Shown piece after piece: positions 2,592 through 41,430 of a DNA stretch of 64,000 nucleotides. A program made the translations under genes and the position numbers. The notes beneath the pieces are model-generated. The model had not been told where the DNA came from, made no database searches, and saw only the letters and a list, made by a program, of their open reading frames with translations. Each line of letters begins with the position of its first letter. Position 1 is the first letter of the stretch. Source of the DNA: Seonamhaeicola algicola (GTDB taxonomy: Bacteria; Bacteroidota; Bacteroidia; Flavobacteriales; Flavobacteriaceae); assembly GCF_007997385.1 (NCBI RefSeq), contig NZ_VOSC01000019.1, forward strand, positions 265,864 to 329,863. Reading direction: 5' to 3'.

Positions 2592-3899
2592 ATGGATAAT
2601 TTAGATGCAGCAAGACTGCAAATGGCATTCACACTTATTTTTCATATTGTGTTTGCTTGTATTGGTATGGTTATGCCATTTTTTATGGTTGTAGCTCATA
2701 AAAAGTGGTTAAACACCAAAAACCCTATTTATTTAACGCTTACAAAATCATGGCAAAAAGGTGTTGCCATTTTTTTTGTTACTGGCGCAGTATCGGGTAC
2801 CGCCTTATCTTTTGAGTTAGGCTTACTTTGGCCCGAATTTATGAAATATGCTGGACCAATTATTGGTATGCCATTTTCACTTGAAGGTGCAGCCTTTTTT
2901 GTTGAAGCCATTGCCCTTGGTTTTTATTTATATGGCTGGAATAAACTGCCCGAAAAATTTCACTGGTTTACAGGTGTTATTGTTGGTATTGCGGGTGTTG
3001 CTTCTGGTATTTTAGTGGTATCTGCAAACGGTTGGATGAATGCACCCTCTGGTTTTGATTATATTAATGGAGAATTCACCAACATAAACCCCATAAAAGC
3101 CTTATTAAACGATGCTTGGTTTACACAAGCCTTACACATGACTTTAGCTGCATTTACAGCCACAGGTTTTGCTGTTGCTGGCATTCATGCCTTTCAAATT
3201 TATAAAAAACGACACGTAGAACTTCATACAAAAGCTTTTAAAATAGCTATTACTTTTGGCGCAATTGCTGCTATTTTACAGCCCTTAAGTGGCGATTTAT
3301 CTGCTAAAGACATTGCTAAAAGACAACCTGTAAAATTAGCTGCTATGGAAGCGCATTACCATACTCAAAAAGGTGCTCCTTTATACATTGGCGGTATTGT
3401 TAATAACGAAAAAGGCGAAGTAACCCATAAAATTGAAATACCTAAAGCCTTATCTTTTTTAGCTTTTGGTAATTTTGATGCCGAAGTAAAAGGTTTAAAT
3501 GATTTTCCTGATGATGTAAAACCTAAAAATATAGCTTTAGTACACTATGCATTTCAAACCATGGTTGGCTTAGGCACCTTACTCATGTTTGCCGGTATTT
3601 TATTTTTTATTAGTTTGAAGAAAACACATTGGATGCAAAATAAACGTTACTGGCTACTCTTTTTTTTATTAGCGCCTCTTGGCTTTTTAGCTTTAGAAGC
3701 AGGCTGGATTGTTACCGAAGTTGGCAGACAACCATGGATAATTCATAATGTAATGAAAACAAAAGATGCTGTTACACCAATGCCAGGTATTGTTTATAGC
3801 TTTTACATGTACTTAGTGTTGTACGGTATTTTAACAGTAGCCGTAACATGGTTAATGCTTAGGCAAATTAAGTTTTTAAACAACTCTAAAATCTCATAA
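2592..3899 (+). CDS. cydA: Cytochrome bd-type quinol oxidase subunit I
   Basis: 435 residues, a multi-pass inner-membrane protein. It has the conserved start DAARLQMAFTLIFHIVF with an early histidine haem ligand, FELGLLWPEFM, NGWMNAP, and the C-terminal GRQPWIIHNVMKT. With subunit II it forms the bd oxidase that reduces oxygen to water with quinol at low oxygen or under oxidative stress, without pumping protons. It is the short form, lacking the long Q-loop insertion of the E. coli enzyme, as is usual in Bacteroidota. cydB follows two bases after the stop, so the two form an operon. Confidence 0.95.
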   Translation: MDNLDAARLQMAFTLIFHIVFACIGMVMPFFMVVAHKKWLNTKNPIYLTLTKSWQKGVAIFFVTGAVSGTALSFELGLLWPEFMKYAGPIIGMPFSLEGAAFFVEAIALGFYLYGWNKLPEKFHWFTGVIVGIAGVASGILVVSANGWMNAPSGFDYINGEFTNINPIKALLNDAWFTQALHMTLAAFTATGFAVAGIHAFQIYKKRHVELHTKAFKIAITFGAIAAILQPLSGDLSAKDIAKRQPVKLAAMEAHYHTQKGAPLYIGGIVNNEKGEVTHKIEIPKALSFLAFGNFDAEVKGLNDFPDDVKPKNIALVHYAFQTMVGLGTLLMFAGILFFISLKKTHWMQNKRYWLLFFLLAPLGFLALEAGWIVTEVGRQPWIIHNVMKTKDAVTPMPGIVYSFYMYLVLYGILTVAVTWLMLRQIKFLNNSKIS

Positions 3900-3901
3900 T
3901 T

Positions 3902-4918
3902 ATGCTATACGTTGTTTTATTTTTTTTAGCATTTTCATTGCTTTTATATGTGCTTTTAGCTGGAGCCGATTTTGGTGCTGGCATTATTGAGCAGTTTTCT
4001 TCAAAACACAACCGTACACTTACTAAAAAAACTATTTACCGCGTTATTGGTCCTGTTTGGGAAGCCAATCATATATGGATTATTATAGTTATTGTTATTC
4101 TGTGGGTAGGTTTTCCGGGGTTTTACAATATTCTTATGGTATATTTACACATACCGCTTACCTTAATTTTACTAGGCATTACCCTTAGAGGTGTAGCTTT
4201 TGTTTTTAGGCATTATGATGCTTACAAAGATAAAACACAACTTTTATATGATTGGATGTTTAGAGTATCTAGCGTTGTAACACCTATATTTTTAGGCGTA
4301 ACTTTTGGCGGTTTAATTTCAGGGGATATTGAAATTACTGCAAACCTAGAAAACACCAATTTTTACAGCGCTTACATTGCTTCTTGGTTTAATTTATTTT
4401 CATTATTTGTTGGTTTCTTTTTTGCAGGTATTTGCGCCTTTTTAGCCAGCATTATGCTTATTGGTGAAGCTAACAAAACAGAACGCCGTTTATACGTTAA
4501 AAAAGCTAGAATTGCCACTATTACAGTTATAATTTTAGGCTTTTTAGTATTGGCCGTTGGGTTTGTACAAGAAAAAGTTTTTGTTTTAAGTTTTTTTAAA
4601 AACCCATATGCAATAGGTCTTATTGTTTTTTCGGCATTATTAATACTACCGCTTTTAAACAGTATTAAAAACGAAAGACGTATTATAACCAGAGCTTTAG
4701 CAGGACTTCAGGTTATATTAATTTTATTAGCTGCTTTTGTAACGCATTTTCCTGATATAATTATAACTACAAACGGCAGTGTAAATATTTTAGAAACTGT
4801 AGCTACTAACCAAGTTATAAAAGTATTAGGTATTGCTCTTATAATAGGCGGTGCTATAATTTTACCAGGATTATTTCACCTTATGAAATCATTTAAAATG
4901 ATAAAAATTTTAGAATAG
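3902..4918 (+). CDS. cydB: Cytochrome bd-type quinol oxidase subunit II
   Basis: 338 residues with about eight predicted membrane helices. The start VLAGADFGAGIIEQF is the family hallmark and GPVWEANHIWIII is the conserved first-loop motif. It partners CydA, which it follows at two bases, in the inner-membrane bd oxidase. No small CydX-like gene is visible after it; a strong symmetrical terminator closes the operon. Confidence 0.95.
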   Translation: MLYVVLFFLAFSLLLYVLLAGADFGAGIIEQFSSKHNRTLTKKTIYRVIGPVWEANHIWIIIVIVILWVGFPGFYNILMVYLHIPLTLILLGITLRGVAFVFRHYDAYKDKTQLLYDWMFRVSSVVTPIFLGVTFGGLISGDIEITANLENTNFYSAYIASWFNLFSLFVGFFFAGICAFLASIMLIGEANKTERRLYVKKARIATITVIILGFLVLAVGFVQEKVFVLSFFKNPYAIGLIVFSALLILPLLNSIKNERRIITRALAGLQVILILLAAFVTHFPDIIITTNGSVNILETVATNQVIKVLGIALIIGGAIILPGLFHLMKSFKMIKILE

Positions 4919-4929
4919 AAATTAGCACA

Positions 4930-4960
4930 AAAAAACGCAACTCAATGAGTTGCGTTTTTT
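4930..4960. terminator. Bidirectional intrinsic terminator, cydB / dnaK
   Basis: A near-perfect hairpin (arms containing AAAAAACGCAACT and AGTTGCGTTTTTT) is flanked by A- and T-tracts. It lies between the convergent cydB and dnaK genes and can serve both strands. Confidence 0.85.
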
Positions 4961-5047
4961 CATTTAGCTTTCTGTCTGTTAACTTTAAGCTTTTATTCAG
5001 TATAAGTAATTCTATCAATATTGAACATTTCAACATTGATTAAGTCC

Positions 5048-6958
5048 TTACTTTACTTCTTCGAAATCAACGTCTTCAACATCGCTTCCTTCGTTTGTGT
5101 TTCCTCCAGCAGAAGCATCAGGTCCTGGTTGAGCACCACCAGCTTGTTGTGCTTCAGCTTGTGCTTTATACATTTCTTCAGAAGCAACTTTCCACGCTTC
5201 ATTCATTTTTTCTAAAGCAGGTTCAATTGTAGCTAAATCTTTAGTTTCGTATGCTTTTTTCAATTCTTCTAAAGCTGCTTGAATTGGTTGTTTTTTATCA
5301 TCTGATAATTTATCACCAAATTCTTCTAATTGCTTTTCCGTTTGGAAAATCATAGAATCTGCTTCATTTAATTTTTTAGCAGATTCTGCTGCTTTTGCAT
5401 CTGCTTCAGCATTTGCTTCAGCATCTGCTTTCATTTTTTGGATTTCTTCTTCAGTTAATCCAGAAGATGCTTCAATTCTAATATCTTGTTTCTTACCTGT
5501 TGCTTTATCTTCAGCAGATACTTTAATAATACCGTTTGCGTCAATATCAAACGTTACTTCAATTTGCGGTGTACCACGTCTTGCTGGTGGAATACCATCT
5601 AAGTGAAAACGTCCAATAGTTTTGTTATCGGCAGCCATTGGTCTTTCTCCTTGTAACACGTGTATTTCAACAGATGGCTGATTATCGGCAGCTGTAGAGA
5701 ATACTTGCGATTTTTTGGTAGGAATGGTTGTATTTGCTTCAATTAATTTAGTAAATACGTTACCCATAGTTTCAATACCAAGTGATAATGGTGTTACATC
5801 TAAAAGTAATACATCTTTAACATCGCCTGTTAATACACCACCTTGAATACCAGCTCCTAATGACACAACCTCGTCTGGGTTTACACCTTTACTTGGGGCT
5901 TTACCAAAGAAGTTTTCAACGGCTTTTTGTACAGCAGGAATACGTGTTGAACCACCTACTAAAATAATTTCGTCAATATCACTTTTACTTAAACCGGCAG
6001 CTTTTAAAGCAGACTGACAAGGCTCTATTGTACGTTTTACTAAATCGTCAATTAATTGTTCAAATTTACTACGTGTTAATGTACGTACTAAGTGTTTTGG
6101 TCCGCTTGCTGTAGCAGTAATATATGGTAAATTAATTTCGGTTTGTTCAGAAGATGATAACTCAATTTTTGCTTTTTCAGCAGCTTCTTTTAAGCGTTGA
6201 AGTGACATAGGATCTTGTCTTAAATCCATATTTTCTTCAGCTTTAAATTCTTCGGCTAACCAATTGATAATTTTATCATCAACATCATCACCACCTAAGT
6301 GTGTATCACCATCGGTAGATAATACTTCAAATACACCATCTCCTAGTTCTAAAATAGACACGTCATGCGTACCACCACCAAAATCAAATACAACTATTTT
6401 TTGGTCTGATCCTTTTTTATCTAAACCATAAGCTAAAGCTGCAGCTGTAGGCTCGTTAATTATACGCTCTACTTTTAAACCTGCAATTTCACCGGCTTCT
6501 TTTGTTGCTTGACGCTGAGAATCATTAAAGTACGCAGGTACTGTAATTACTGCTCTACTTACGTCTTGCCCTAAATAGTCTTCAGCCGTTTTCTTCATTT
6601 TTTGAAGAATCATGGCACTTAATTCTTGTGGCGTATATAATCTGCCATCAATATCAACTCTAGGTGTATCATTATCACCTTTTACTACTTTATAAGGTAC
6701 ACGTTCTGCTTCGTTTTTAGACTCAGAATATTTGTTACCCATAAAACGTTTAATAGAATAAACGGTTTTTGTTGGGTTTGTTACTGCTTGACGTTTTGCA
6801 GGATCACCAACTTTTATCTCACCGCCTTCAACAAATGCAATTACAGATGGTGTAGTACGTTTCCCTTCTGCATTTGGGATTACTACAGGATCATTTCCTT
6901 CCATTACTGAAACGCAAGAGTTGGTTGTTCCTAAATCTATTCCAATAATTTTACTCAT
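5048..6958 (-). CDS. dnaK: Molecular chaperone DnaK (Hsp70)
   Basis: 636 residues. The ATPase domain begins [12 protein letters not shown] and carries [14 protein letters not shown] and the [13 protein letters not shown] phosphate loop. The linker [17 protein letters not shown] leads to the substrate-binding domain and a helical lid. The tail is rich in A, G and Q and ends [11 protein letters not shown], a variant of the terminal EEVD-like motif. DnaK folds and refolds client proteins in the cytoplasm with DnaJ and GrpE, neither of which is adjacent. A palindrome at 7041-7053 in its promoter region may be a heat-shock regulatory site. Confidence 0.97.
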
Positions 6959-24386: not shown

Positions 24387-24498
24387 TTTTTAATAACTTG
24401 TTATTGTTTAAAAAATGTACGAAAACAAAGAAGCCTTTTGCATATATTTTTTGATTTAATTTGGTAAATTCGTGGGAGCTATTAATTAACTATCCACT

Positions 24499-25998
24499 AT
24501 GTTAGATCAATCCTTTTCAAGTAGTAATTTTAATAAAATCTTTTTAAAAGAAAATCGAAAAGGGAATTTTGACAAATCCCACTTCACTGAAGAATATTTA
24601 AAGAAGCATCAAGAGTTTAAAAATATTGTAGGGGAAAAATTAAACCTAAAGAAAACCAGAGCTCTAACTGAAGAAGAATTAGACAATTTTGCTGAAAGGT
24701 TAGAGAAAATTAATAATGAAAAAGAAGAAATTAGACTATCTGTTTTTGAAGATTATTCTAATGTAATTAACAACCAAAATACTCCTTTTCAATTCAAAAT
24801 AGTATATAATTCTACAAAAGAAGTTTATACTGTTGAAAACGATGCTGCTTCCTATTATGCAATAAAACAACTCCAACGAAATATCTACAAGACTTTTAAA
24901 GTTATTCAAGCGGATAGAAATAAAATTATAAAGCAAATTTTTAATATTGCTTCCGATGGATTTCCTAAAGTAATTATAAAGACTGATATAAAATCATTTT
25001 ACGAGTCCATTCCTCAAGATAAACTCTTTAAAAAAATAGAGAATAATACGTTGCTTTCACCATTTTCTAAAAAATTGATTAAAAGGCTTTTTTATGAGTT
25101 TGAAGATAAAAAAGACAAAACTAAAATACCTTTAGGAAAAGGTGTACCGAGAGGAATTGGTATTAGCGCATATCTATCTGAATTATATATGCGAGATATA
25201 GATAAAGAAATTAAAACATTAGAGGATGTAATTTATTATGCTCGTTATGTTGATGATATTATTGTAATTATTTGCCCAAAAACCGAATCAAAGAAAAGAG
25301 ATTATTTAAGCGAAATTAAAAGAATTGTGAATGAAAATTTATTGGAGTTAAAAGATGGATCTGATGGAGAAGAGAGTAAAACTAAAGAAATACCCCTATT
25401 TGAAAATAAGGAGAATAATGATCCAATCTCTGAAGAATTTAAATACTTAGGTTATAAATTCATTTTAAAGCATTTCCCTAAGAAATGTAAAACAGATTTA
25501 ACCTTTGAAATAAGCGATAATAAAATCAAAGAGAAATATATTAATCGATTAGAAGCTTTAGTTGAAACGTATAATAATGATTCAAAATATAATGAAAAGA
25601 GGGCTCGCAAAATTATGCTTGAAAGAATAAAGTTCCTTACCGGAAATTTTCACTTAAATAACAATAAGAAAAATATAAAATCAGGTGTGTTTTATTCTAA
25701 TAGAATGTTAGAATTAAATTACAACAACTTTGAAAGTTTAGATTTCCTCAATTCTGAATTAAGTAGAATAATTAATAATCTTTCTCCTCCTGTCATAATT
25801 CATAATGAAAACAACAATTTTAAAGAAAAACTAATTGATCATATCTTAAGTAACTATGATTTTAAAAAAGGTTTTAAAAACAAAGAAAAATTCTTCTATA
25901 CTTTTAATTTTAACTCAAAGGAAGAATCTTCTTTTTATTCAAAAAAATTCAAAAGAATAACAAACAAATTTGAAGTAATTAAATCTATTTGGAAGTAA
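24499..25998 (+). CDS. Reverse transcriptase, probable Drt3a (UG3-type) of a DRT3 antiphage system
   Basis: 499 residues, cytoplasmic. RT motif A is VIIKTDIKSFYESIP (Asp163), motif B is KGVPRGIGISAYLSELYM (about 214-231), motif C is YYARYVDDIIVI (Asp252, Asp253), and FKYLGYKF follows as a later palm segment. All catalytic carboxylates are intact. There is no maturase X, HNH or protease domain, so it is not a group II intron or diversity-generating RT. About 160 residues precede motif A and a long lysine-rich helical region follows. Its stop overlaps the next RT by one base. The pairing of two unlike RTs plus a downstream ncRNA is the DRT type 3 layout. The UG3 label is inferred from context, not from a profile search. 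Confidence 0.8.
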   Translation: MLDQSFSSSNFNKIFLKENRKGNFDKSHFTEEYLKKHQEFKNIVGEKLNLKKTRALTEEELDNFAERLEKINNEKEEIRLSVFEDYSNVINNQNTPFQFKIVYNSTKEVYTVENDAASYYAIKQLQRNIYKTFKVIQADRNKIIKQIFNIASDGFPKVIIKTDIKSFYESIPQDKLFKKIENNTLLSPFSKKLIKRLFYEFEDKKDKTKIPLGKGVPRGIGISAYLSELYMRDIDKEIKTLEDVIYYARYVDDIIVIICPKTESKKRDYLSEIKRIVNENLLELKDGSDGEESKTKEIPLFENKENNDPISEEFKYLGYKFILKHFPKKCKTDLTFEISDNKIKEKYINRLEALVETYNNDSKYNEKRARKIMLERIKFLTGNFHLNNNKKNIKSGVFYSNRMLELNYNNFESLDFLNSELSRIINNLSPPVIIHNENNNFKEKLIDHILSNYDFKKGFKNKEKFFYTFNFNSKEESSFYSKKFKRITNKFEVIKSIWK

Positions 25999-28235
25999 TG
26001 AGTAAAAAGAAAAAACATATAAAATATCCAAAAGAACGAGCGATACTTTCTGATGTTCTTCCTTATGAAATTCCTATTACTTTTTCTAATAGATATTTCT
26101 ACAGATTTTTGGTTAATAATGAAATAGAGCTTATACCATCTTCAAAATTTAATATAAAAGGTATAGTTCAATCGGATTTTCCTAACCTAAGTTTAAAAAA
26201 TTCAAATGGGTTAATTAAACATAAATCAAAATTAAAAGGAGAGAACCTTGAGGCATTAGAAATAATTTTGAAGGTATTATTTTCAACAAATACTAATAAT
26301 GTAAATACTAGAAAAATTCCTTTTACTTATAAAATTAGTCATAAGGAAAAAGATTTTAGAGAACTTGCTTTGATTCATCCAATGAATCAACTATTACTAG
26401 TTAATTTCTATGAACAATTTAAAGAATCAATCATATATTCTTGTTCATTAAGTAACTACAGCATAAGAAGACCTGATGGTGTAGCTAAATTTACTTTTTT
26501 TAATGATAAACTTCATCAGTCTAACAAAGGTGATTCGTCTGATTTTTTAGAATTGAGTGGTAAAGAATATGAAAATTTAAAGACTTTTTTTTCTTACAGT
26601 AAATACACCAATATTTATCAGTTTTTTGAAGATTACAGATATCAAAGAGCTGAAAAAAAATATAATCATTTATTTAAATTTGACATTTCTAAATGTTTTG
26701 ATAGTATTTATACCCATTCAATATCTTGGGCTGTATTAGGTCTAGAAGTTGTTAAAGAAAATTTTAAGTTTTCTGAAAATTCATTTTCAGGAAAATTTGA
26801 TAGATTTATTCAAAATACTAATTATGGTGAAACTAACAGTATTTTAATTGGTCCAGAATTTTCTAGAATATTTGCGGAGATTATTTTACAAAAAATAGAT
26901 ATAACAATAGAGAAAAAATTAAAAGAAAATAATTATTTACTTAAAGTAGACTACGAAATGTATCGTTATGTTGATGATTATTTTCTGTTCTGTGATGATA
27001 GTGTTTTAAAAGACGAAATATTAAAACTACTTAAACACGAATTAAAAAAATATAAATTATCAATTAATAATTCTAAAACAGAAGAATATAACAAACCAAT
27101 TATAACTGAAATAACAATTGCTAAAAATAAAATTATTGATTTATTTTCTGAAAATCCTAAATTTAAAATAACGGAAATAGAAGAAAAGGAAGTAGACAAG
27201 AAAGATAAAGATGATGCAGATGATGAAGTTTCTTTACTGAATCATAAATTTGAATTATCATTCAATCCCAATAAATTAGCAACACGTTACAAAATAATCA
27301 TAAAAGAATCTCAAGTTGATTATAAAGATGTTTTAAATTATAGCTTAGCTCTTCTTTCAAGTAAAATTGAAAAAAACTTAATTTCTTTTGAAAAAATATA
27401 TTTTAAATATCTTGAAGATAATGACGAAAAGGAGTTCTCTAAATCTGATTTGTTAAAACTTAGAAAAACGGAAAGTTTGTTTACTTCCCATATTGAAGGT
27501 GTAATTGATTTTATTTTCTTTATTTATTCAGTTTCCCCAAGAGTAAACTCAACAATTAAAGTGAGTCTTATTCTTTCAAAAATAATACTACTTTTTAAAG
27601 AAAAAAATAAAACGACTAAACAGTATAAAATTAGTCAAAACAACAGAGAACGTGTATTCAAAAAAATACTTGATGAGTCTAGTTTTATATTAAAGAAAAA
27701 CGCTCTAAATGAATATGCACAAGTAGAATCTCTTTATCTACTTACGCTATTAAGAGATTTAGGAAAAGAATATAGATTACCTGAAGAAATATTGATAAAA
27801 TTCTTAAACGCTTCTGAAGAAAACAATTCGGAAAAAATTACAATTAAAAATAATACGTTAAATTATTTTTCAATTGTTGTATTGTTCTATTACATAGGAC
27901 ATTCTCAAAAATATAAAAAGGTAAAAGAAGCTTTAATAGCTTATACTTTCAATTATATAAGAGAATACCCAAATGAAAAAAGAGGTAAATCTTCGGAAAT
28001 GGCACATTTAATACTTGACTTATTAGCTTGTCCATATTTAGAATTTAGAATAAAAACAAAACTCTTAATTTATTATCGCGATGATAATAAATTTTCACAA
28101 ATAAAAAAGACAATTTCTGACTCTAAAAAATTACATAAATTTCATAAAAATCATAAATATTGGTTTACTAAATGGGAAAGGTTTAACTTAGCGAAAGAAT
28201 TAGAAAATAAAAAGAGTCAAGAAGTTTACTCTTAA
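25998..28235 (+). CDS. Second reverse transcriptase, probable Drt3b (UG8-type)
   Basis: 745 residues from the ATG inside TAATG; a TTG nine bases earlier in frame is not needed. Motif A is LFKFDISKCFDSI (Asp229), motif B region is SILIGPEFSRIFAEIIL, and motif C is MYRYVDDYFLF (Asp326, Asp327). The N-terminal segment LPYEIPITFSN resembles Abi-type and UG8-type RTs. An acidic insert (EEKEVDKKDKDDADDE) follows the palm, then a helical C-terminal domain of about 350 residues, as in AbiA/AbiK-like RTs. It is translationally coupled to the first RT. In DRT3 the second enzyme is reported to make the complementary strand of an alternating repeat DNA; that role is transferred from the family, not shown here. 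Confidence 0.8.
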   Translation: MSKKKKHIKYPKERAILSDVLPYEIPITFSNRYFYRFLVNNEIELIPSSKFNIKGIVQSDFPNLSLKNSNGLIKHKSKLKGENLEALEIILKVLFSTNTNNVNTRKIPFTYKISHKEKDFRELALIHPMNQLLLVNFYEQFKESIIYSCSLSNYSIRRPDGVAKFTFFNDKLHQSNKGDSSDFLELSGKEYENLKTFFSYSKYTNIYQFFEDYRYQRAEKKYNHLFKFDISKCFDSIYTHSISWAVLGLEVVKENFKFSENSFSGKFDRFIQNTNYGETNSILIGPEFSRIFAEIILQKIDITIEKKLKENNYLLKVDYEMYRYVDDYFLFCDDSVLKDEILKLLKHELKKYKLSINNSKTEEYNKPIITEITIAKNKIIDLFSENPKFKITEIEEKEVDKKDKDDADDEVSLLNHKFELSFNPNKLATRYKIIIKESQVDYKDVLNYSLALLSSKIEKNLISFEKIYFKYLEDNDEKEFSKSDLLKLRKTESLFTSHIEGVIDFIFFIYSVSPRVNSTIKVSLILSKIILLFKEKNKTTKQYKISQNNRERVFKKILDESSFILKKNALNEYAQVESLYLLTLLRDLGKEYRLPEEILIKFLNASEENNSEKITIKNNTLNYFSIVVLFYYIGHSQKYKKVKEALIAYTFNYIREYPNEKRGKSSEMAHLILDLLACPYLEFRIKTKLLIYYRDDNKFSQIKKTISDSKKLHKFHKNHKYWFTKWERFNLAKELENKKSQEVYS

Positions 28236-28377
28236 CAATAATGCCAATGCCAATCTTCAGGTTATATCAAACGTTTATGTTAGATATAATTATTTTCACA
28301 CACTTGCAGAGGCAACAGTCCTTGGTAAAAGAGGTCAAAAACAAAAAGGTAGCGGGAGATTTTGCTACCTTTTTTTT
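28236..28377 (+). ncRNA. Probable DRT3 non-coding RNA with ACACAC template motif
   Basis: Directly after the second RT comes a structured stretch without coding potential. At 28262-28289 there is a hairpin (TTATATC/GATATAA, one mismatch, then AAC/GTT, loop GTTTAT). Next is an unpaired run with CACACAC at 28297-28303, then a small hairpin TTGC-AGAG-GCAA at 28304-28315. It ends in the intrinsic terminator at 28343-28377. In known DRT3 systems the ncRNA carries an ACACAC template copied by the first RT, as I recall. The 5' end is uncertain; a hairpin at 28212-28233 overlaps the RT stop and transcription may begin inside the RT gene. Confidence 0.65.
28343..28377 (+). terminator. Intrinsic terminator ending the RT cassette / ncRNA
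   Basis: Perfect stem AAAAAGGTAGC / GCTACCTTTTT, loop GGGAGATTTT, and a run of eight T. It is stronger than needed for a low-level operon, which fits an abundant RNA product. Confidence 0.85.
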
Positions 28378-41325: not shown

Positions 41326-41345
41326 AATGTGTGTTTTGTGTGCGT

Positions 41346-41430
41346 TAGGGATTGTAGTGGAAATCCTTTTTTAGCCTTAAAGCTAAAAAAGATTGCAACG
41401 TAAAGCCCGACCCCTTGTGGGTAACGCCCT
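41346..41430. repeat. REP-like intergenic repeat element
   Basis: The 85-base stretch contains ATTGTAGTGGAAATCC, an internal hairpin (CTTTTTTAGC/GCTAAAAAAG), GATTGCAACGTAAAGCCCGA and CCCTTGTGGGTAACGCCC. I recognise this arrangement from recurring intergenic elements in Flavobacteriia. Only one copy is in the window, so the assignment rests on memory. Confidence 0.55.

Follow-up and report, generated by a model that had tools for sequence, protein, structure and literature searches.

A very probably intact DRT3 anti-phage locus in Seonamhaeicola algicola: joint conservation of template and gate residues, and an apparent pseudoknot in its RNA

In the defense-associated reverse transcriptase (RT) system DRT3, protein side chains take the place of a template. 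In Escherichia coli, as described by Wang et al. (PMC13174585), an ACACAC template in an RNA is copied by one RT into poly(dT-dG), the poly(dC-dA) strand is primed by a tyrosine and made without a nucleic-acid template, both strands anneal, RecBCD restrains the product and Gam acts as the trigger; in Drt3b, E22 and R241 are the base gates, R71 is a helper and Y666 primes. DRT10 systems, according to PMC12632851, vary their templates and carry a stem-loop just 5′ of them. Here we describe two overlapping open reading frames (ORFs) and a downstream RNA in a 64,000-nucleotide (nt) stretch of Seonamhaeicola algicola DNA (the window; all coordinates are positions within it and all parts listed lie on the + strand), which very probably form an intact DRT3 anti-phage system, a compact three-part unit. 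The window copy is an ordinary member of this already described system, and the gain is comparative, namely the joint conservation of template and gate residues in the sequences of the nearest 81 loci, together with a putative pseudoknot.

Two reverse transcriptases of the DRT3 families

The two ORFs encode proteins of 499 and 745 amino acids (aa), the latter counted from its ATG, with the following features.

24499–25998, +: drt3a, 499 aa, UG3 reverse transcriptase of Class 2 (NF041747, PADLOC, 9z6y_A)
25996–26000, +: overlap of the drt3a stop with the drt3b start, TAATG (sequence)
25998–28235, +: drt3b, 745 aa, UG8 reverse transcriptase of Class 1 whose C-terminal half is mostly helical
26067–26069, +: E24, counterpart of the dA gate E22 (E in 88/89 rows)
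26358–26360, +: R121, counterpart of R71 (R in 89/89 rows)
26865–26867, +: R290, counterpart of the dC gate R241 (R in 89/89 rows)
26967–26978, +: YVDD catalytic motif of Drt3b, residues 324–327 (sequence, alignment)
28227–28229, +: Y744, second-last residue, counterpart of the priming Y666 (Tyr in 88/89 rows)

A sequence-only reading of this locus had noted two non-identical RTs with intact YVDD motifs and motif-A aspartates, joined by a TAATG overlap and followed by a structured non-coding stretch with a terminator, and had likened them to DRT type 3 (UG3 + UG8 + non-coding RNA), to be checked against UG3 and UG8 profiles. Profile searches bore this out and placed the adjacent ORFs in different families. 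Drt3a reached 392 bits with the NCBI equivalog NF041747 (cut-off 200) and Drt3b 747.6 bits with NF041748 (cut-off 350), both about twice the curated cut-off, and with the PADLOC models Drt3a scored 340 bits and Drt3b 634 where the runner-up classes reached 100 and 142, leads of 240 and more than 490 bits. The closest solved proteins were likewise DRT3 chains, 9z6y_A (Drt3a) for the first ORF (E = 4.4e-25) and the Drt3b chains 26cz_A (E = 2.5e-76) and 9z6y_H (E = 5.3e-54) for the second, and these two proteins were the only RVT_1 matches in the genome at E ≤ 0.001.

In order to place the E. coli residues on the window protein, the 775-residue chain 26cz was taken as a 108-residue tag followed by 667 residues; the numbers E22, R71 and R241 then coincide with the expected E, R and R in the 26cz alignment and correspond to E24, R121 and R290. 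The residue alignment comprised 89 rows (the window, 80 named loci and eight further loci, some of them near-copies), in all of which the motif-A aspartate (D229 in the window) and both aspartates of the YVDD motif were kept. The single departure at E22 was L012, in which another contig carries the match to the model's N-terminal part, and L054, the sole row without an aligned tyrosine, nevertheless has a tyrosine at its C-terminal end. In Drt3a, the YVDD motif (residues 250–253, codons 25246–25257) and the motif-A aspartate, D163, were invariant in an alignment of six sequences (A2).

An AlphaFold2 prediction of Drt3b built from 33 sequences (mean per-residue confidence, pLDDT, 81.7; predicted TM-score, pTM, 0.85) showed a mostly helical C-terminal half, and the model thus has the alpha-helical repeat domain of the Class 1 UG RTs. 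Among its best 10 matches, the predicted fold was closest to solved DRT4, DRT6, UG15 and AbiK, which we take to be Class 1 RTs, with TM-scores of 0.38–0.49 by query length; the DRT3 entries 9z6y and 26cz were not among the best 50 fold matches listed from a library running up to 8 April 2026. Both proteins, which the sequence-only reading had called long, exceed the NCBI models of 412 and 647 positions, and in this they match their nearest relatives (L038–L045), whose proteins measure 490–498 aa for Drt3a and 711–725 aa for Drt3b.

The downstream RNA, its template and its apparent pseudoknot

The stretch following drt3b has the features below, the helices being given as drawn.

28240–28377, +: non-coding RNA, approximate ends (covariance model, fold z-score)
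28242–28251, +: P1, 5′ strand, of the stem closing the template arm
28252–28258, +: putative pseudoknot, 5′ strand AATCTTC
28262–28289, +: hairpin TTATATC/GATATAA upstream of the template, which it may delimit (82.4% of its cells paired in the clade alignment A5)
28297–28303, +: template CACACAC (ACACAC within 140 nt after the drt3b stop in 81/81 loci)
28304–28314, +: P1, 3′ strand
28320–28334, +: P2 hairpin
28345–28377, +: P3 terminal hairpin (28345–28372) with eight T (28370–28377), probable terminator
28355–28361, +: putative pseudoknot, 3′ strand GGAGATT, in the P3 loop

From 5′ to 3′, the first strands of P1 and of the pseudoknot thus precede the boundary hairpin and the template, after which come the second strand of P1, then P2, then P3, whose loop contains the second pseudoknot strand, and the T tract. 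None of 200 dinucleotide shuffles folds as well as this stretch (z −3.42), and because the hairpin runs into eight T, the end of the stretch at 28377 is exact, in agreement with the structured stretch and terminator seen in the sequence-only reading. The hairpin was not listed by a simple terminator scan, which allows loops of 8 nt, whereas the drawn loop has 10.

In the 81-locus set, made up of the window and the 80 closest of 336 relatives, ACACAC occurred within 140 nt 3′ of drt3b in every locus, as against 2.3 loci in shuffles and one of 81 in a control stretch 300–440 nt downstream. Among the eight further loci outside this set, some of which coincide with named loci, it lay 29–43 nt after the stop in five, at 184 nt in L012 and at 220 nt in L004, and was not found within 450 nt after the stop in L013. 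A covariance model, R1, built from 31 RNAs, none of them from the window's own clade, had a single match in the window at E ≤ 10, at 28253–28371 (25.3 bits, E = 2.2e-4), which was also its best match over the whole genome (E = 0.0126; the next scored 18.4 bits). Of 42 other loci, R1 matched 26 at E ≤ 1 and 19 at E ≤ 0.01, the E. coli plasmid DRT3 (L118, 35.3 bits) being one of these 19. The sequence of the window thus places downstream of drt3b a non-coding RNA with the ACACAC template of DRT3 in a loop of the drawn structure.

By analogy with E. coli, Drt3a would bind this RNA and copy CACACAC repeatedly into poly(dT-dG), while Drt3b, primed by its C-terminal Y744, would add dC and dA in turn, with E24 and R290 acting in place of a template; both strands would then anneal into repeat duplex DNA, presumably within a hexameric complex like that of E. 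coli. The product may be restrained by the counterpart of RecBCD, here an AddAB-like pair, until a phage blocks the nuclease, whereupon the infected cell would stop, so that defence itself would carry over from the E. coli system. The mechanism given in the sequence-only reading agrees with that of Wang et al. (PMC13174585), and the sequence features that it requires are present.

It is very unlikely that the locus, while DRT3 by descent, makes something other than a matched GT/AC duplex, for example a different repeat. By tblastn, the window Drt3b shares just 39% identity with the protein of the E. coli plasmid, templates do differ among DRT10 systems (PMC12632851), and some distant Drt3b-bearing pairs lack a downstream ACACAC; CACACAC, E24, R121, R290 and Y744 are nevertheless all kept, and the template stands in each of the 81 nearest loci. 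An ever-present template and near-invariant gates in proteins that otherwise vary are what matched strands would demand.

The P3 loop appears to pair back with the 5′ end of the RNA in a pseudoknot, as covariation among the sequences suggests. In a swap test, in which the terminal hairpin is picked irrespective of pairing, the 5′ region paired with its own terminal loop at a mean of −9.27 kcal/mol, compared with −6.07 when the loop came from another locus, and the corresponding means for the post-template bases were −9.39 and −5.96; neither effect was reached by any of 500 shuffles, also among 37 loci mutually less than 60% identical, and two control stretches showed no difference. Sixteen of the 81 hairpin picks fell outside 36–56 nt after the template, several being plainly other hairpins (including four L100-type Enterobacterales), and these loci with doubtful picks therefore do not test the pseudoknot. 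The remaining 65 gave −10.06 against −6.53 (0/500) and the 16 alone −6.06 against −4.77 (1/500); with the 22 nt before the template removed, 63 loci still gave −7.97 against −5.64 (0/500). Contiguous pseudoknot helices of at least 6 pairs could be formed in 64 of 81 loci, compared with 32 with foreign loops (maximum 38 in 20 shuffles). Minimum-energy folding, which is blind to pseudoknots, pairs part of the P3 loop with itself.

In the 31 RNAs the full structure was paired in 81.7% of cells and the two pseudoknot helices in 93% and 70%, with a covariation of 0.545 compared with 0.273 in shuffles and at most 0.19 when slid, which is not an independent test because the helices were drawn by eye from the same sequences. 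In A5, the RNA alignment of the window's own clade of nine, in which P3 is misaligned for L041, L042 and L044, 87.5% of cells were paired and covariation was 0.269 against 0.181, and a measure of further pair types did not rise above shuffles (171/500). By sequence comparison, the pseudoknot covariation appears to hold in Bacteroidota, Alphaproteobacteria and Halomonas-type Gammaproteobacteria and, by inspection only, in Enterobacterales; in the E. coli plasmid copy a TCAGGC/GCCTGA pairing is readable by eye.

The comparison of 81 copies thus yields a testable pseudoknot model of the DRT3 RNA. We tentatively suggest, as somewhat less than an even chance, that this RNA is a pseudoknotted particle whose template arm would be locked only once the whole RNA, including its terminator, has been made; if so, the pseudoknot could couple finished transcription to Drt3a assembly and fix the template edge, the latter being a role that a pseudoknot can have in telomerase RNA. 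The word pseudoknot is absent from the accessible text of Wang et al. (PMC13174585) and of a review (PMC13314766), the structure paper of Deng et al. not being covered, and the titles and abstracts found for this word with 'defense-associated reverse transcriptase' concern DRT2, DRT1 and DRT10 only. The pseudoknot may well be visible in the structure of Deng et al. (2026).

Spread, selection and genome context

In a quick protein tree, whose sample consists mostly of the nearest relatives, the window grouped with Aquimarina and Arenibacter (support 99) inside a clade of nine (support 100) whose eight named members are all Bacteroidota, which backs the earlier guess of a Bacteroidota branch. 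The Aquimarina aggregata copy (L038) shares 84% identity in Drt3b and 78% in Drt3a and has a similar RNA. DNA similarity to it extends over 24496–28374 in two pieces, with 26129–26213 unaligned, and none was found in the flanks when 25 kb of the window were compared with loci of about 10 kb; the match with the copies of both Aquimarina and Arenibacter stops at the drt3a start and at the terminator. L038 and L039 (Arenibacter sp. 6A1), from two different genera, are 96.4% identical over a stretch of 3,880 bases that begins 66 nt upstream of drt3a and stops about 37 nt after the terminator, with no match outside it. The genes drt3a and drt3b and the RNA thus travel together. Over the cassette, G+C (0.23–0.26 in 1-kb steps) is lower than in the sampled flanks (0.265–0.386).

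Four of 98 relatives had a Drt3b above the cut-off, as did 5 of the 395 genomes in a phylum sample, the window's own genome being counted in each. A search of viral_contigs with Drt3b gave no match, and phage records gave three partial matches below 30% identity, two of them from the same phage. An open YxDD frame ends adjoining drt3b in 77 of the 80 named loci. L078, L112 and L061 show no long open YxDD frame beside drt3b, in spite of having ACACAC and Drt3b; L061 lies near a contig end, and L078 and L112 may have a broken Drt3a.

Both genes are under purifying selection, with non-synonymous and synonymous rates (dN/dS) against L038 of 0.166/0.795 for Drt3a and 0.090/0.786 for Drt3b. These values bear on the highly improbable reading of the locus as a decayed or silent DRT3 remnant. 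The promoter form in Bacteroidota is TTTG-N-TAnnTTTG. Such a remnant would fit the absence of this form just before drt3a, where there is only one loose TTG/TAnnTTG match, and the fact that similarity to L038 starts 3 bases before the start codon, so that no upstream control region is shared. Both frames are, however, open at full length with their motifs present, dN lies well below dS, the RNA and terminator are in place, and L038 and L039 do have their 66 nt before drt3a in common.

Two genes that lie close together in the genome encode an AddB-like protein and a RecB/AddA-like helicase carrying a PD-(D/E)XK nuclease domain. Extending the RecBCD restraint and the Gam trigger to such a host would be by analogy, and a Bacteroidota DRT3 whose host has AddAB-like genes would be a natural case in which to see how widely the RecBCD-guard model applies.

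Nothing observed argues that the locus lies outside DRT3; several observations do weigh against an intact DRT3 system. Besides the unmatched promoter form, no sigma-70-like site was found just before drt3a, and the ten scanned neighbours (TetR, SDR, oxidoreductase, KatG, peroxiredoxins, FtsK and others) included no defence island or integrase. An OmpA-like ORF separates the AddA-like and AddB-like genes, both of which score below the NCBI named cut-offs. Finally, R1 missed 16 of the 42 other loci, including L040 and L042 of the window's own clade, its score on the window RNA is modest, and in its alignment P1 is not paired in the drawn way.

In a genome of the same genus (G002), the SDR gene left of the cassette precedes a different ORF, and the right-hand neighbour gene gave matches of at most 65 bases, in two of six other genomes of the genus; because of this, no clean insertion point can be read. 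Elsewhere in the window, at 41333–41416, lies a Flavo-1 RNA (Rfam RF01705, 61.7 bits).

Divergent pairs and comparison with known systems

In eight more distant plasmid and phage systems (L145–L152), R241 was kept in all, E22 was E in seven and D in one (L146), R71 was kept in seven (not in L149 as aligned), and ACACAC lay 50–222 nt after the stop in six, L150 and L151 lacking it. In the Pediococcus pentosaceus plasmid L150 (1551–5004) the genes, Drt3a-like with 185 bits (cut-off 200) and Drt3b-like with 285 (cut-off 350), are divergent, and ACACAC occurs on the minus strand in the gap, upstream of the first gene, and not on the plus strand. In Erysipelothrix phage SE-1 (L151, 1356–4863) a phage-borne pair with the annotations hypothetical and DNA binding protein is distantly Drt3a-like with 94 bits and Drt3b-like with 240 (cut-off 350), keeps the gate residues and has no ACACAC on its plus strand.

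A further divergent two-RT pair was seen in a Bacteroidota genome (L132 in G127, 3008–6352). Its first RT is Drt3a/UG17-like (239 and 172 bits), and the second is Drt3b-like (NF041748, 299.6 bits; cut-off 350) and keeps the E/R/R gates and the terminal tyrosine, with no ACACAC after it. Just 5′ of the first RT, GGGCGAGG...CCTCGCCC, recognized by eye, flank AAAACACAACACATTA, which from its sequence is perhaps part of an upstream RNA with another template. With L132 considered as a possible DRT3 variant, a search of 391 genomes, viral contigs and plasmids for its relatives gave only partial matches besides L132 itself.

That both window enzymes are retron, group II intron, diversity-generating retroelement or DRT10-like RTs in chance order is so improbable that it may be dismissed. 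The palm is common to all RTs and RT_UG17 matches Drt3a with 99.6 bits, but Drt3a and Drt3b lead the next class by the margins given above, the group II intron model TIGR04416, a best match to which would have spoken against the sequence-only reading, reaches just 68.8 bits on Drt3a and 35.7 on Drt3b (cut-off 300), and a YxDD frame lies 5′ of drt3b in those 77 loci.

Compared with DRT10, as described in PMC12632851, the window shares an RT that would repeatedly copy a short looped RNA template with a stem-loop directly 5′ of it; DRT10, unlike the window, has no Drt3b partner, has a SLATT protein and has templates differing between systems. UG17 lies 240 bits below Drt3a here, and the ten neighbours gave no SLATT family match, one of them matching nothing. 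With the E. coli DRT3, in contrast, the window shares the gene order, the UG3 + UG8 pair, the downstream ACACAC RNA, the E22/R71/R241 gates, the YVDD motif, the C-terminal priming tyrosine and the helical-repeat half; it differs in the sequence distance between the Drt3b proteins and in its P1 stem, which as drawn is interrupted by an internal loop.

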